From an uncultured Burkholderiaceae bacterium (lineage in GTDB: Bacteria > Pseudomonadota > Gammaproteobacteria > Burkholderiales > Burkholderiaceae_B): a stretch of DNA of 64,000 nt. A program made the position numbers and the translations under genes. The notes under the pieces were generated by a model that was given only the letters and a program-made list of their open reading frames with translations, was not told the DNA's origin and did no database searches. Positions 21,433 through 29,896 of this stretch are shown here, piece after piece (within the stretch, counting starts at the first letter, position 1; each line of letters opens with the position of its first letter). Location of the stretch: positions 124,001 through 188,000 of the forward strand of contig CAKSZL010000002.1 in NCBI GenBank assembly GCA_934525625.1. Direction: 5' to 3'.

Positions 21433-23004
21433 ATGATGATTGATTTGCCTCGTCGTCGAAAAGTGGTCCAGGCGTTGGCCCTGGCAATGGCAACACCGCT
21501 GTTTTCCGCCTGCGGCGGCGGAAGCGGCTCCGATTCGGACATCGCCGACCCCACACCCGATCAGCCCGCTCCCAATGAAGGGGGCGGCGCAGCCGGCACC
21601 ACGAAGTTCATGGTGTATCCGAACGCACTCGACCCCCGCATTCTTGGCGGGACGACCGACGACGGGGAACAGTTCGTCCTTTACGGAGAAAAGGACGCTA
21701 ACGGAAAAGCAATCGCTCTTGAAGAGATGATTTTCATAGGCCCCGAGCTTGAAACGGCGGCGGTGAAATTCTTTCCCGCGGAGAAAAAAATCGTCAGCAT
21801 CGGCAACGGCATTCAAACCGAGTTGACCGATAACGGCGTCGAAGGCCTGATTTTCGGTTTGGTGGCGGGCGACAAGCAGCTTGCCATCAATCTTCCGGCC
21901 CAGGCCGGCGGCGGTTCCGCAACGCCGACGTCTTTGTCCAGGCCGTTTCAGTCACGCCTGGGCAAGCGGGCCGCGTTCACCCTGGGCGAGGGGCCATGCT
22001 TCTGTGCCCCCGGAAAAAAATCCGTATCGGCCAGCCAGGCCCAGGCGGCGGCTGGCTTCGCCCCGATTGCAACGATTAACGTGGCGGGCTGTGTGGGCCG
22101 CGACCCCATCGTAAAAGTCATCATGCGTGACGAGGCCGGCAAGGTGCAGGACGTGCTGTTCGCCAAGCCCGGCCCCACCGGTACGTACAACGCCGTCTTG
22201 TCTTCCGTGCATTCCAGCGATCAGGCGTTTGCCGATGCGGCGCAACATGCGCTGGACTTGATGGCGGATCATTTCGGGCTTCATCAAGATGGATTTGCCC
22301 TTGTCGATTTCCTGCAAGACCAAGTCAGCGACGAGATTGCCGACAAGGTTTGGGACGAGCTCGAAGCAAAAGGCAAGACGCAAGACATCTACGAAGAGTT
22401 TGCAGAGTATCTGAATCTGACCCCGGACGATGTCAGCGCGGTTCAAAAGCGGGCGAAGTTTTTGGCGTTCGTGACGAAGTCGCTGAGCTTCATGTTCAAT
22501 ACGCTTGATGTTTTCAGCAAAATAACGCTGGCGTACGAAGCCGGCCTGGTGCTGGCCGACTTCGCCGATGCGTATATGCAGAAGGAGTTCAACAGGATCC
22601 AGCTTCAGCCCGTTGTCGAAACCGGCGATGGGCAAAAATTCACGGGCGCTTCCTCTGGGTTGTTGTTGCCGGAAGGGCCGTATCCAGACTTGTCGGTGTC
22701 GGTGCCGGGCAACGTCAGTATTTCAAGCCTGGTCTTGAGTCCCGCCAATCCGTCCGAAGGGGAAAACTACCGCGCGGCAGGCGAAGTATTCTGCCTGGAG
22801 GCCGGCGACGAGATTGTCTTGTCCGTCGTCGGCACCGACGGCTATCACGATCAACTCTGGGAAACTTCCAGCGGCGCCGAACGGCAAAGTTTCGAGCTTT
22901 CCGTGCCGGGTGCGTTGTCGGGCGTCAACGACATCGTGGTGCTGCGGGTCGTGCGCAAGGGCGACGTCGTCGCCAGCCGATCGGCGTCCCTGGTGTTCGG
23001 CTAG
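21433..23004 (+). CDS. Large lipoprotein of unknown function
   Basis: I do not recognise a family. The 523-residue protein starts with R-R-R-K-V-V-Q and a hydrophobic segment ending in the lipobox F-S-A-C, then a Gly/Ser/Asp/Pro-rich spacer (residues 27-54); the Arg run could also be read as a Tat-like signal. Residues about 60-230 look beta-rich, with Cys pairs (C-F-C, G-C-V-G). About 255-400 is a helical region (D-F-L-Q-D-Q-V-S-D-E-I-A-D-K and onward). About 420-523 looks like an Ig-like beta-sandwich (L-S-V-S-V-P-G-N-V-S-I). Two in-frame ATGs begin the gene. It sits between an outer-membrane barrel and aroG; no partner function is evident. Confidence 0.7.
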   Translation: MMIDLPRRRKVVQALALAMATPLFSACGGGSGSDSDIADPTPDQPAPNEGGGAAGTTKFMVYPNALDPRILGGTTDDGEQFVLYGEKDANGKAIALEEMIFIGPELETAAVKFFPAEKKIVSIGNGIQTELTDNGVEGLIFGLVAGDKQLAINLPAQAGGGSATPTSLSRPFQSRLGKRAAFTLGEGPCFCAPGKKSVSASQAQAAAGFAPIATINVAGCVGRDPIVKVIMRDEAGKVQDVLFAKPGPTGTYNAVLSSVHSSDQAFADAAQHALDLMADHFGLHQDGFALVDFLQDQVSDEIADKVWDELEAKGKTQDIYEEFAEYLNLTPDDVSAVQKRAKFLAFVTKSLSFMFNTLDVFSKITLAYEAGLVLADFADAYMQKEFNRIQLQPVVETGDGQKFTGASSGLLLPEGPYPDLSVSVPGNVSISSLVLSPANPSEGENYRAAGEVFCLEAGDEIVLSVVGTDGYHDQLWETSSGAERQSFELSVPGALSGVNDIVVLRVVRKGDVVASRSASLVFG

Positions 23005-23054
23005 CGGGGCGCCGCCATGCGTATCACGTAGTTTTGTAGTAGAATCGAACCACT

Positions 23055-23135
23055 ATGTATAAAGCTTTCTCCTATTTTTTCTATTTTTTTGGGTTTCCAA
23101 CACCGCTGGTGGAGGAAGGGAAGCGTTGTATCTAG
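23055..23135 (+). CDS. Phe/Tyr-rich leader peptide of aroG
   Basis: A 26-codon open frame before aroG whose first 14 residues are MYKAFSYFFYFFGF: six Phe and three Tyr, then P-T-P-L-V-E-E-G-K-R-C-I and TAG at 23133-23135. Such a density of the pathway's own end products is the hallmark of a ribosome-mediated attenuator. No Shine-Dalgarno is seen; a TAGAAT hexamer at 23040-23045 would put the RNA start only a few bases before the ATG, so the leader may be translated leaderless. The terminator hairpin is 20 nt downstream. Confidence 0.8.
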   Translation: MYKAFSYFFYFFGFPTPLVEEGKRCI

Positions 23136-23186
23136 TCTGAATAGAATTCCCCAAAAGCCGCCGGCGGATGCCAGGCGGCTTTTTTT
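23103..23186 (+). promoter_or_regulatory. aroG transcription attenuator (antiterminator and terminator)
   Basis: Terminator: AGCCGCC (23156-23162) pairs with GGCGGCT (23174-23180) around an 11-nt loop and is followed by a run of T (23180-23186). Antiterminator candidate: CCGCTGG (23103-23109, inside the end of the leader frame) can pair with CCAGGCGG (23171-23178, one bulge), which overlaps the 3' arm of the terminator. Stalling on the Phe/Tyr codons would leave 23103-23109 free and allow read-through; fast translation would cover it and allow termination. Visible pairing supports this; RNA data are lacking. Confidence 0.72.
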
Positions 23187-23268
23187 GTCGCCGGGCGCCG
23201 GCAGTGTAAACAGCGCCGTCTTCGGGAGTCAGCCAGCCGAAGACGCCGCGCGGGGCTTTTTCCCGTGC
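23187..23268. repeat. Degenerate family A-like repeat before aroG
   Basis: Starting at the terminator T-tract, GTCGCCGGGCGCCGGCAG, then a spacer, GTCTTCGGGAGTCAGCCAGC and CGAAGACGCCGCGCGGGGC followed by TTTTT. The layout (T-tract, GCCGGGC, hairpin, CAGCC-GAAG-CGCCG-CGGGG, T-tract) follows family A, but the sequence has drifted strongly. GTCTTCGG and CCGAAGAC form a stem. Confidence 0.5.
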
Positions 23269-23300
23269 CTGGCCGTGGCAGATAAACATCGGAGCCGATC

Positions 23301-24377
23301 GTGACACACAATACCGACGATTTACGAATTCGAGAAATCAAGGAACTCAGTCCGCCTTCCCACGTGATGCGCGAGTTTTCCAGCACCGTGAAGGTTTCCG
23401 AGACGGTTTACCGCGCGCGCCGCGCCGTGCACGACGTGCTGCACGAAAAGGACGACAGGCTGGTCGTGGTCATTGGCCCGTGCTCCATCCACAACGTGGA
23501 TGCCGCCCTGGAATACGCGCGCCGCCTGAAGGCCGAGCGCGACCGTTTCGCCGGCGAGCTCGAAATCATCATGCGCGTCTACTTCGAGAAGCCGCGCACC
23601 ACCGTGGGCTGGAAAGGCCTGATCAACGACCCGGCGCTGGACGGCAGCTTCAACATCAACCAGGGCTTGCGCATTGCGCGCCAGTTGCTGCTGGACGTCA
23701 ACGAGTTGGGCCTGCCGGCGGGCTGCGAGTTCCTCGACATGATTACGCCGCAGTACATCGCCGACCTCGTCTCGTGGGGCGCCATCGGGGCGCGTACGAC
23801 CGAAAGCCAGGTTCACCGCGAGCTGGCTTCCGGCCTGTCGTGTCCGGTGGGCTTCAAGAACGGCACCGACGGCAACGTGCGCATCGCGGTGGACGCCATC
23901 AAGGCCGCCTCGCAGCCGCACCACTTCCTGTCGGTTACCAAGGGCGGGCATTCGGCCATCGTTTCCACGCTGGGCAACGAAGATTGCCACATCATTCTGC
24001 GCGGCGGCAGCAAGGCGCCCAACTACGACGCCGCCAGCGTCGATGCCGCCAGCCAGACGCTGGAAAAGAACGGTTTGCGCCCGCGCGTGATGGTCGACGC
24101 CAGCCACGCCAACAGCAATAAAGACTACACCCGCCAACCCGAGGTGCTGGCCGACGTGGCCGGGCAGATCGCCGACGGCGACACGCGCATTTTCGGCGTC
24201 ATGATAGAAAGCCATCTGGTGGGCGGCCGCCAAGACCTGGTCGAAGGCAAGCCGCTTACTTACGGCCAAAGCATTACCGACGGCTGTATCGATTGGGAGG
24301 CTTCCATTAAAGTGCTGGAAAACCTGGCGCAGGCCGTTGCCGCCCGCCGTAAAGTGCTGGCCGGGCAGGCTGCCTGA
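23301..24377 (+). CDS. aroG: 3-deoxy-7-phosphoheptulonate synthase (DAHP synthase, class I)
   Basis: First enzyme of the shikimate pathway: PEP + erythrose-4-phosphate to DAHP. 358 residues, class I-alpha. Motifs: V-V-V-I-G-P-C-S-I-H (catalytic Cys), R-V-Y-F-E-K-P-R-T-T-V-G-W-K-G, G-A-R-T-T-E-S-Q, G-F-K-N-G-T-D-G, and D-x-S-H-A-N metal-binding residues. The N-terminal D-D-L-R-I-R segment carries the feedback site of AroG/AroF/AroH enzymes. It starts with GTG after CGGAG. Upstream lies a Phe/Tyr-rich leader peptide and terminator, pointing to control by Phe/Tyr supply in addition to enzyme feedback. Confidence 0.97.
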   Translation: MTHNTDDLRIREIKELSPPSHVMREFSSTVKVSETVYRARRAVHDVLHEKDDRLVVVIGPCSIHNVDAALEYARRLKAERDRFAGELEIIMRVYFEKPRTTVGWKGLINDPALDGSFNINQGLRIARQLLLDVNELGLPAGCEFLDMITPQYIADLVSWGAIGARTTESQVHRELASGLSCPVGFKNGTDGNVRIAVDAIKAASQPHHFLSVTKGGHSAIVSTLGNEDCHIILRGGSKAPNYDAASVDAASQTLEKNGLRPRVMVDASHANSNKDYTRQPEVLADVAGQIADGDTRIFGVMIESHLVGGRQDLVEGKPLTYGQSITDGCIDWEASIKVLENLAQAVAARRKVLAGQAA

Positions 24378-29820: not shown

Positions 29821-29896
29821 TGGTGGGGCCTGAGGGACTCGAACCCTCGACCAAAAGATTAAGAGTCTTCTGCTCTACCAACTGAGCTAAAGCCCC
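29821..29896 (-). tRNA. tRNA-Lys (anticodon CTT)
   Basis: A 76-nt cloverleaf on the minus strand with encoded CCA. Acceptor GGGGCTT pairs with AGGCCCC (one G-T). The D arm has AGCTCAGTTGGTAGAGC, the anticodon stem-loop AAGACTCTTAATCTT places CTT at 34-36, and the T arm is GAGGGTTCGAACCCTC. It decodes AAG. It is convergent with purB. Confidence 0.95.

Follow-up and report, generated by a model that had tools for sequence, protein, structure and literature searches.

The window analysed here is a 64,000-nucleotide stretch of DNA from an uncultured Burkholderiaceae bacterium. On its plus strand it carries aroG (23301-24377), which has a GTG start codon and encodes a type I DAHP synthase of 358 amino acids (Pfam PF00793, DAHP_synth_1, E 2.2e-96). 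Among proteins of solved structure, the best relatives of this AroG are those of the Phe-regulated DAHP synthase of E. coli (E about 1e-147), and the alignment shows that E. coli AroG shares the identical stretch FLSVTK (residues 209-214 of the AroG studied here). We take Ser211 in this stretch to be the mark that separates Phe-type from Tyr-type feedback. An ORF of 523 amino acids (21433-23004), which starts like a lipoprotein (FSACGGGS) and matches no Pfam family, precedes the intergenic region studied here. In the window as a whole, the sole Rfam family found at gathering score corresponds to a tRNA gene on the minus strand (29824-29896).

Between the 523-amino-acid ORF and aroG, the initial annotation had recognized a Phe/Tyr-rich frame of 26 codons, and this predicted leader peptide ORF is indeed present on the plus strand at 23055-23135, running from ATG to TAG and encoding MYKAFSYFFYFFGFPTPLVEEGKRCI. 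Its composition is six Phe and three Tyr, i.e. nine F/Y per 26 codons, and the control codons are Y2, F5, Y7, F8, F9, Y10, F11, F12 and F14. When every stop-free stretch of 10 residues was counted in the six frames of the 64-kb window, at least six F/Y were found in eight overlapping stretches, all of them inside this ORF, the best one reaching 8/10. The predicted ORF is of the kind that characterizes a leader-peptide attenuator, short and rich in codons for the products of the pathway.

The minimum free energy fold of 23090-23190 (z -2.47) contains a hairpin (23095-23104/23108-23117), a helper helix (23118-23122/23147-23151) and a terminator (23153-23165/23170-23183), from which four plus-strand segments can be delimited. 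Segment 1 (23095-23104) lies in the ORF, where the aromatic codons end; its parts UUCC (23095-23098) and CACC (23101-23104) would form a protector hairpin with positions 23108-23111 and 23114-23117 of segment 2 (23105-23117). Segment 2 also includes the putative antiterminator strand, GCUGGUGG (23105-23112), able to pair with CCGCCGGC (23158-23165) inside segment 3 (23153-23165), the 5' arm of the terminator. The 3' arm, segment 4 (23170-23183), is followed by T's to 23186. The possible helper strand GGGAA (23118-23122, plus strand), which pairs with UUCCC (23147-23151), fits both states. An intrinsic terminator is thus predicted between the leader ORF and the structural gene, as the initial annotation had proposed. 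A simple pattern scan of 22900-23400 returned neither a terminator nor a promoter, and it may have missed this terminator because the stem has one bulge in the predicted fold. Between the terminator and aroG, we also observed a perfect 8-bp inverted repeat, GTCTTCGG...CCGAAGAC (23218-23244), which has one exact match in the window, was found in 0/100 shuffles and has no T run directly after it.

Related loci were taken from genome contigs with AroG, and the best 80 of 590 confirmed stretches were retained. By their record titles, these 80 belong mostly to Alcaligenaceae, Oxalobacteraceae and Burkholderiaceae, the placement of the genera in families being our assumption, and the nearest AroG relative among them is that of Pollutimonas bauzanensis (81% identity), from which an Alcaligenaceae genome is the probable origin of the window. 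In 77 of these 80 loci and in the window, an ORF rich in aromatic codons could be parsed ahead of a terminator of the GGCGG type; leader and terminator were not found in L028 and L076, and the upstream sequence of L030 is limited to 48 nt. Because the parser gave preference to ATG, the 78/78 ATG starts among the parsed leaders carry no weight; when the first start-type codon upstream of the aromatic core was taken without preference, it was ATG in 73, GTG in 3 and TTG in 2 of the 78 leaders. In the 24-nt core, which by definition ends on the last aromatic codon, F, Y or W account for 506/624 in-frame codons against 178/546 and 156/546 in the other two frames, an excess that is partly due to selection because aromatic content was the criterion for picking the cores. 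Closely similar cores offer a fairer comparison: in 107 pairs of non-identical cores with at most three differences, these fall 38, 59 and 136 times on codon positions 1, 2 and 3, and the 191 codon changes in these pairs comprise 107 synonymous, 35 aromatic-to-aromatic and 49 other changes. When up to eight differences are admitted (594 core pairs), the counts become 648, 1302 and 1410, with 817 aromatic-to-aromatic changes; second codon positions then vary almost as much as third positions, which is a point on the opposite side. The core differences fit selection for aromatic codons of either kind.

The end of the peptide behaves differently from the RNA. In L029, L045 and L050, the C-terminal end of the ORF lies in a shifted frame, and the stop codon of the Advenella loci L013 and L017 falls at the very start of segment 2, the segment 2 motif being kept in both cases, which indicates that the peptide end is not conserved whereas the RNA is. 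In the two Advenella loci, a ribosome that has reached the stop codon would take up a different position from that in the other relatives. Two loci with titles outside betaproteobacteria, L074 (Kaistia hirudinis) and L077 (titled Mycobacterium sp. KBS0706), have a 73% identical AroG together with the same leader and terminator, which suggests either that the unit was transferred as a whole or that the records carry wrong titles.

The motif GG[CT]GG is located between the aromatic codons and the terminator in 77/78 leaders, compared with 12.3 expected from shuffles of those stretches; the exception, L015, has the variant TGGCG. In the predicted fold up to segment 3, the whole motif pairs with segment 3 in 77/77 loci, partly by construction, because both motifs were picked by patterns able to pair. 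For covariation, these 77 loci were combined with 46 of 50 further ones, four being dropped for lack of the strict motif, to give a set of 123 loci. The two bases that flank the core pairing, immediately ahead of GGYGG and immediately behind CCGCC, vary in concert: 54 of the 123 loci have T and A there, and 17 have C and G. This flank position pairs in 79/123 loci for a shuffle mean of 63.5, and 0/2000 shuffles, which leave shared ancestry in, were as high; for the next two flank positions, 4/2000 and 0/2000 shuffles, in which kinship likewise remains, were as high. The first extension position is unpaired in 44/123 loci, and on the opposite flank of the core just 44/123 loci can pair. Segments 2-4 appear in the alignment as mostly near-invariant columns, so that covariation rests on few positions. 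In the terminator helix, 98.0% of cells are paired in 56 sequences, and at one pair A-U is exchanged for G-C in 21 of these. A helper helix of at least four pairs is possible in 105/123 loci, a count to be read in the light of the ease with which short helices arise by chance.

In the window, the computed energies are -21.2 kcal/mol for the antiterminator arm, -21.9 kcal/mol for the terminator and -10.0 kcal/mol for the 1:2 hairpin. The initial annotation had proposed another antiterminator, in which 23103-23109 would pair with the 3' arm of the terminator (23171-23178). This pairing is possible on paper, but its energy of -9.3 kcal/mol makes it weaker than that of GCUGGUGG with CCGCCGGC in the 5' arm (-16.3 kcal/mol). 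Moreover, the 5'-arm pairing is the stronger one in 77/77 loci (medians -13.5 versus -5.4), and we therefore rejected pairing with the 3' arm as the conserved antiterminator. The predicted antiterminator uses the 5' arm of the terminator, as in the classical layout; according to the computation, it would exclude the terminator, and its 5' strand lies downstream of the control codons. The median z over the 77 loci is -1.37 for 1:2, -2.44 for 2:3 and -5.92 for 3:4. The 1:2 hairpin, which was assessed by per-sequence folds and whose register differs between families in alignment A1, has a z below -1 in 47/77 and below 0 in 62/77 loci; it is predicted to be only modestly stable and is the weakest point of the attenuator model. 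Apart from the choice of the pairing arm, the comparison among relatives that the initial annotation had suggested as a check came out in its favour, since aromatic codons, terminator and a competing antiterminator are all kept.

The initial annotation had also pointed to a -10-like TAGAAT and, from it, to a nearly leaderless start. The hexamer is found on the plus strand at 23040-23045 and ends 9 nt before the leader ATG, but it has no -35 that passes the scan, and no promoter passed the strict scan in window positions 22900-23400. A hexamer TA[GTA]NNT, a pattern chosen after viewing the sequences, ends 6-9 nt before the leader ATG in 20/20 loci that we group here as Alcaligenaceae-type (the window, L001-L018 and L075), versus 2/58 other loci. 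In these 58, one-mismatch TATAAT sites lie mostly 25-29 nt (15 loci) or 35-39 nt (16 loci) upstream. The usual distance from a -10 to the transcription start is 6-8 nt. Given this spacing and the position of the -10, Alcaligenaceae-type transcripts would be expected to start at the leader ATG or no more than about three bases from it. The conserved position of the hexamer speaks for the nearly leaderless start put forward at the outset, and such a start is likely in one family.

We then considered the distribution of the element in the order, using a covariance model (R1) searched against 300 genomes (E <= 0.001). A match was obtained in 75 genomes, of which G001 and G025 had supplied model sequences, leaving 73; in 70 of these 73 genomes outside the model set, the best match lies directly upstream of aroG. 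AroG adjoins the match and an aromatic leader is present in 28/28 returned loci; both AroG and the leader are present in 20/22 fetched loci, and by coordinates the match is just upstream of AroG on the same strand in 22/23. No exact copy of a parsed leader was seen among the fetched loci compared. The three matches away from aroG are in G047, G234 (L167) and G150 (L165). The match in G047 was discarded as the terminator after another gene rather than an aroG leader. At L165 (G150:C20:48230-48373, minus strand), the gene that follows is not aroG but an ORF of 204 amino acids without Pfam match; ahead of it lie a leader rich in Tyr, MVTFSVVYNVYFYWYRSSGGAKGC, a segment GGCGG and a hairpin GCCGCC...GGCGGC. 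This ORF may be a second gene that a related attenuator controls. Weaker model matches at seven places (L111-L117) have no aromatic leader and were set aside, being ordinary hairpins at gene ends by reading; the hairpin of L111 is presumably flanked by rpsI and argC, and that of L113 lies beside a tRNA.

AroG itself was found in 224/300 genomes (E <= 1e-80). Among the aroG loci without R1 match, 58 were read (38 + 20), mostly from the top of the list and not at random, and one of them, L172, has only 224 nt upstream; the leader-plus-terminator layout was absent in 56 of these 58, whereas diverged versions of both elements are present in L178 and L225. Two of the 56 are borderline, L205 with an aromatic ORF but no terminator and L206 with a weaker ORF overlapping a hairpin match. 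It follows that aroG does not need the leader, and a universal presence of the attenuator with aroG was rejected. From these searches, the attenuator appears to be common but patchy in the order.

Taken together, we consider it very probable that the element in the window is a ribosome-mediated transcription attenuator, which would set aroG expression according to the supply of Phe-tRNA and Tyr-tRNA. This is the mechanism that the initial annotation had advanced, and it is supported by the conserved codons, the terminator and the competing antiterminator. From the ORF, its conservation, the alternative helices and the downstream gene, which are sequence-based, we infer translation, stalling, termination and a response to amino acids as follows. 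Judging from the promoter position, transcription would start at or next to the leader ATG and translation would begin on an essentially leaderless RNA. When charged Phe- or Tyr-tRNA is short, the ribosome would stall in codons 7-14 and cover segment 1; segments 2 and 3 would then pair, the terminator would not form and aroG would be transcribed. When both Phe- and Tyr-tRNA are plentiful, the ribosome would reach the stop codon, with segments 1 and 2 paired or covered, and segments 3 and 4 would pair, ending transcription near 23186.

The T-rich tract lies within a GC-rich region, and this could mean that the tract is non-coding, the hairpin being a constitutive terminator or the 3' end of an sRNA and the Phe/Tyr reading a by-product of T-richness. 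For an sRNA, it can be added that in 22990-23320 RF02552 (28.7 bits, E 0.00044) and RF02270 (29 bits, E 0.0025) have better E-values than Phe_leader (RF01859), both scores being far below the respective gathering scores of 60 and 75. However, a non-coding tract is difficult to reconcile with the third-position bias among close cores and with the joint retention of leader ORF, GG[CT]GG and terminator in 77/78 parsed loci; moreover, Phe_leader is the family most often matched in 16 relatives. We regard this explanation as highly improbable. A riboswitch, a T-box or a protein-bound attenuator before aroG, in which the ribosome would have no role, appears even more remote. The arrangement of terminator and antiterminator would by itself also fit such a system, but the conserved in-frame aromatic codons would stay unexplained, and no Rfam match to a riboswitch or T-box was obtained, either at gathering score in the window or up to E 5 in 22990-23320.

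Within ribosome-mediated attenuation, the codons themselves indicate what could be sensed. The 78 leaders contain 369 Phe, 172 Tyr and 35 Trp codons, with Tyr absent in 2 leaders and Trp present in 32; of the 48 leaders from loci that did not belong to the model set, 47 have Tyr and 22 have Trp. For an enzyme that opens the common pathway, these codons would naturally be read as a combined sensor of Phe and Tyr, with Trp in some loci. It may also be that only one amino acid is sensed in practice, either Phe with Tyr incidental or the reverse. The excess of Phe over Tyr codons, the resemblance of the downstream AroG to the Phe-regulated E. coli enzyme and the two leaders devoid of Tyr all agree with this sub-case, but the occurrence of Tyr in 76/78 leaders, confirmed outside the model set, and the frequent aromatic-to-aromatic exchanges in the core do not favour it, and we hold it to be rather unlikely.

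With this element, transcription attenuation would act on the entry step of aromatic amino acid synthesis in some members of a large order, in the form of a simple multi-amino-acid sensor that is also a further candidate for a leaderless attenuator. In the parts of the two sources at hand, the regulator TyrR is described as conserved in gammaproteobacterial groups and absent in other classes (PMC5343134) and as present only in the lower-gamma group (PMC1173090). Since TyrR is reported as absent there, the attenuator may offer an answer to the control of aroG outside gammaproteobacteria. A wider proposal, tentative and in our opinion doubtful as it stands, is that Burkholderiales use one leader peptide to sense Phe and Tyr jointly, in many cases with Trp, at the committed entry of the shikimate pathway, in place of the TyrR control known from gammaproteobacteria; that ribosomes read the Alcaligenaceae-type leader from an RNA that is essentially leaderless; and that the terminated RNA of ~130 nt, itself a small leaderless mRNA, could have a trans role similar to that of S. 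meliloti rnTrpL. The element is also of value for annotation, as the window and the 16 relatives tested fall below the Rfam threshold.

The closest known systems are the enterobacterial attenuators of pheA and pheST (RF01859, Phe_leader), which also combine a Phe-rich leader peptide, a terminator and a competing antiterminator, and whose leader genes we take to be pheL and pheM. RF01859 aligns end to end with the window, but at 21.1 bits (E 0.28) for a gathering score of 55, and it is not even the best sub-threshold family there; in 6/16 relatives, the end-to-end alignment scores 30.5-39.9 bits, again below threshold, and membership of this family was rejected on these values. The enterobacterial attenuators control pheA or pheST, whereas the gene here is aroG, at the pathway entry. 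In addition, the leaders here code for Phe and Tyr, and Trp in some, and a near-leaderless start is predicted in Alcaligenaceae-type loci.

Concerning earlier reports, a literature search of titles and abstract starts, with partial coverage, found no leader or attenuator at a betaproteobacterial aroG. The E. coli aromatic genes described with attenuators in the accessible portion of PMC11878033 are pheA and trpE, and in the main text of PMC2965389, aroG, aroF, DAHP and phenylalanine do not occur. Table 7 of PMC1173090 gives putative attenuators, taken from Merino's website, ahead of operons with tyrA. Its visible rows include the Vibrio aroAIalpha_Y-tyrA operon, the first gene of which encodes a Tyr-inhibited DAHP synthase, and the Bordetella parapertussis supraoperon (PMC1173090). 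Like the element described here, these attenuators are predicted and stand ahead of aromatic genes, but they belong to tyrA operons, and a lone Burkholderiales aroG is absent from the rows shown (PMC1173090). With the Vibrio operon in print, a predicted attenuator at a DAHP synthase operon has a precedent (PMC1173090), and an earlier automated prediction of an aroG attenuator is possible. For the leaderless start, the available part of PMC7298713 describes a parallel in the trpLE(G) attenuator of S. meliloti, in which the leader ORF begins at the 5' end of the RNA. This system shares with ours the control by attenuation and, as predicted here, the leader starting at the RNA 5' end, but it uses Trp codons and controls trpE(G) (PMC7298713), whereas the loci studied here have Phe/Tyr codons and aroG. 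Seen against these systems, the interpretation that is well supported by sequence comparison is that of a classical leader-peptide attenuator, placed here at an unusual target gene and kept in many relatives.
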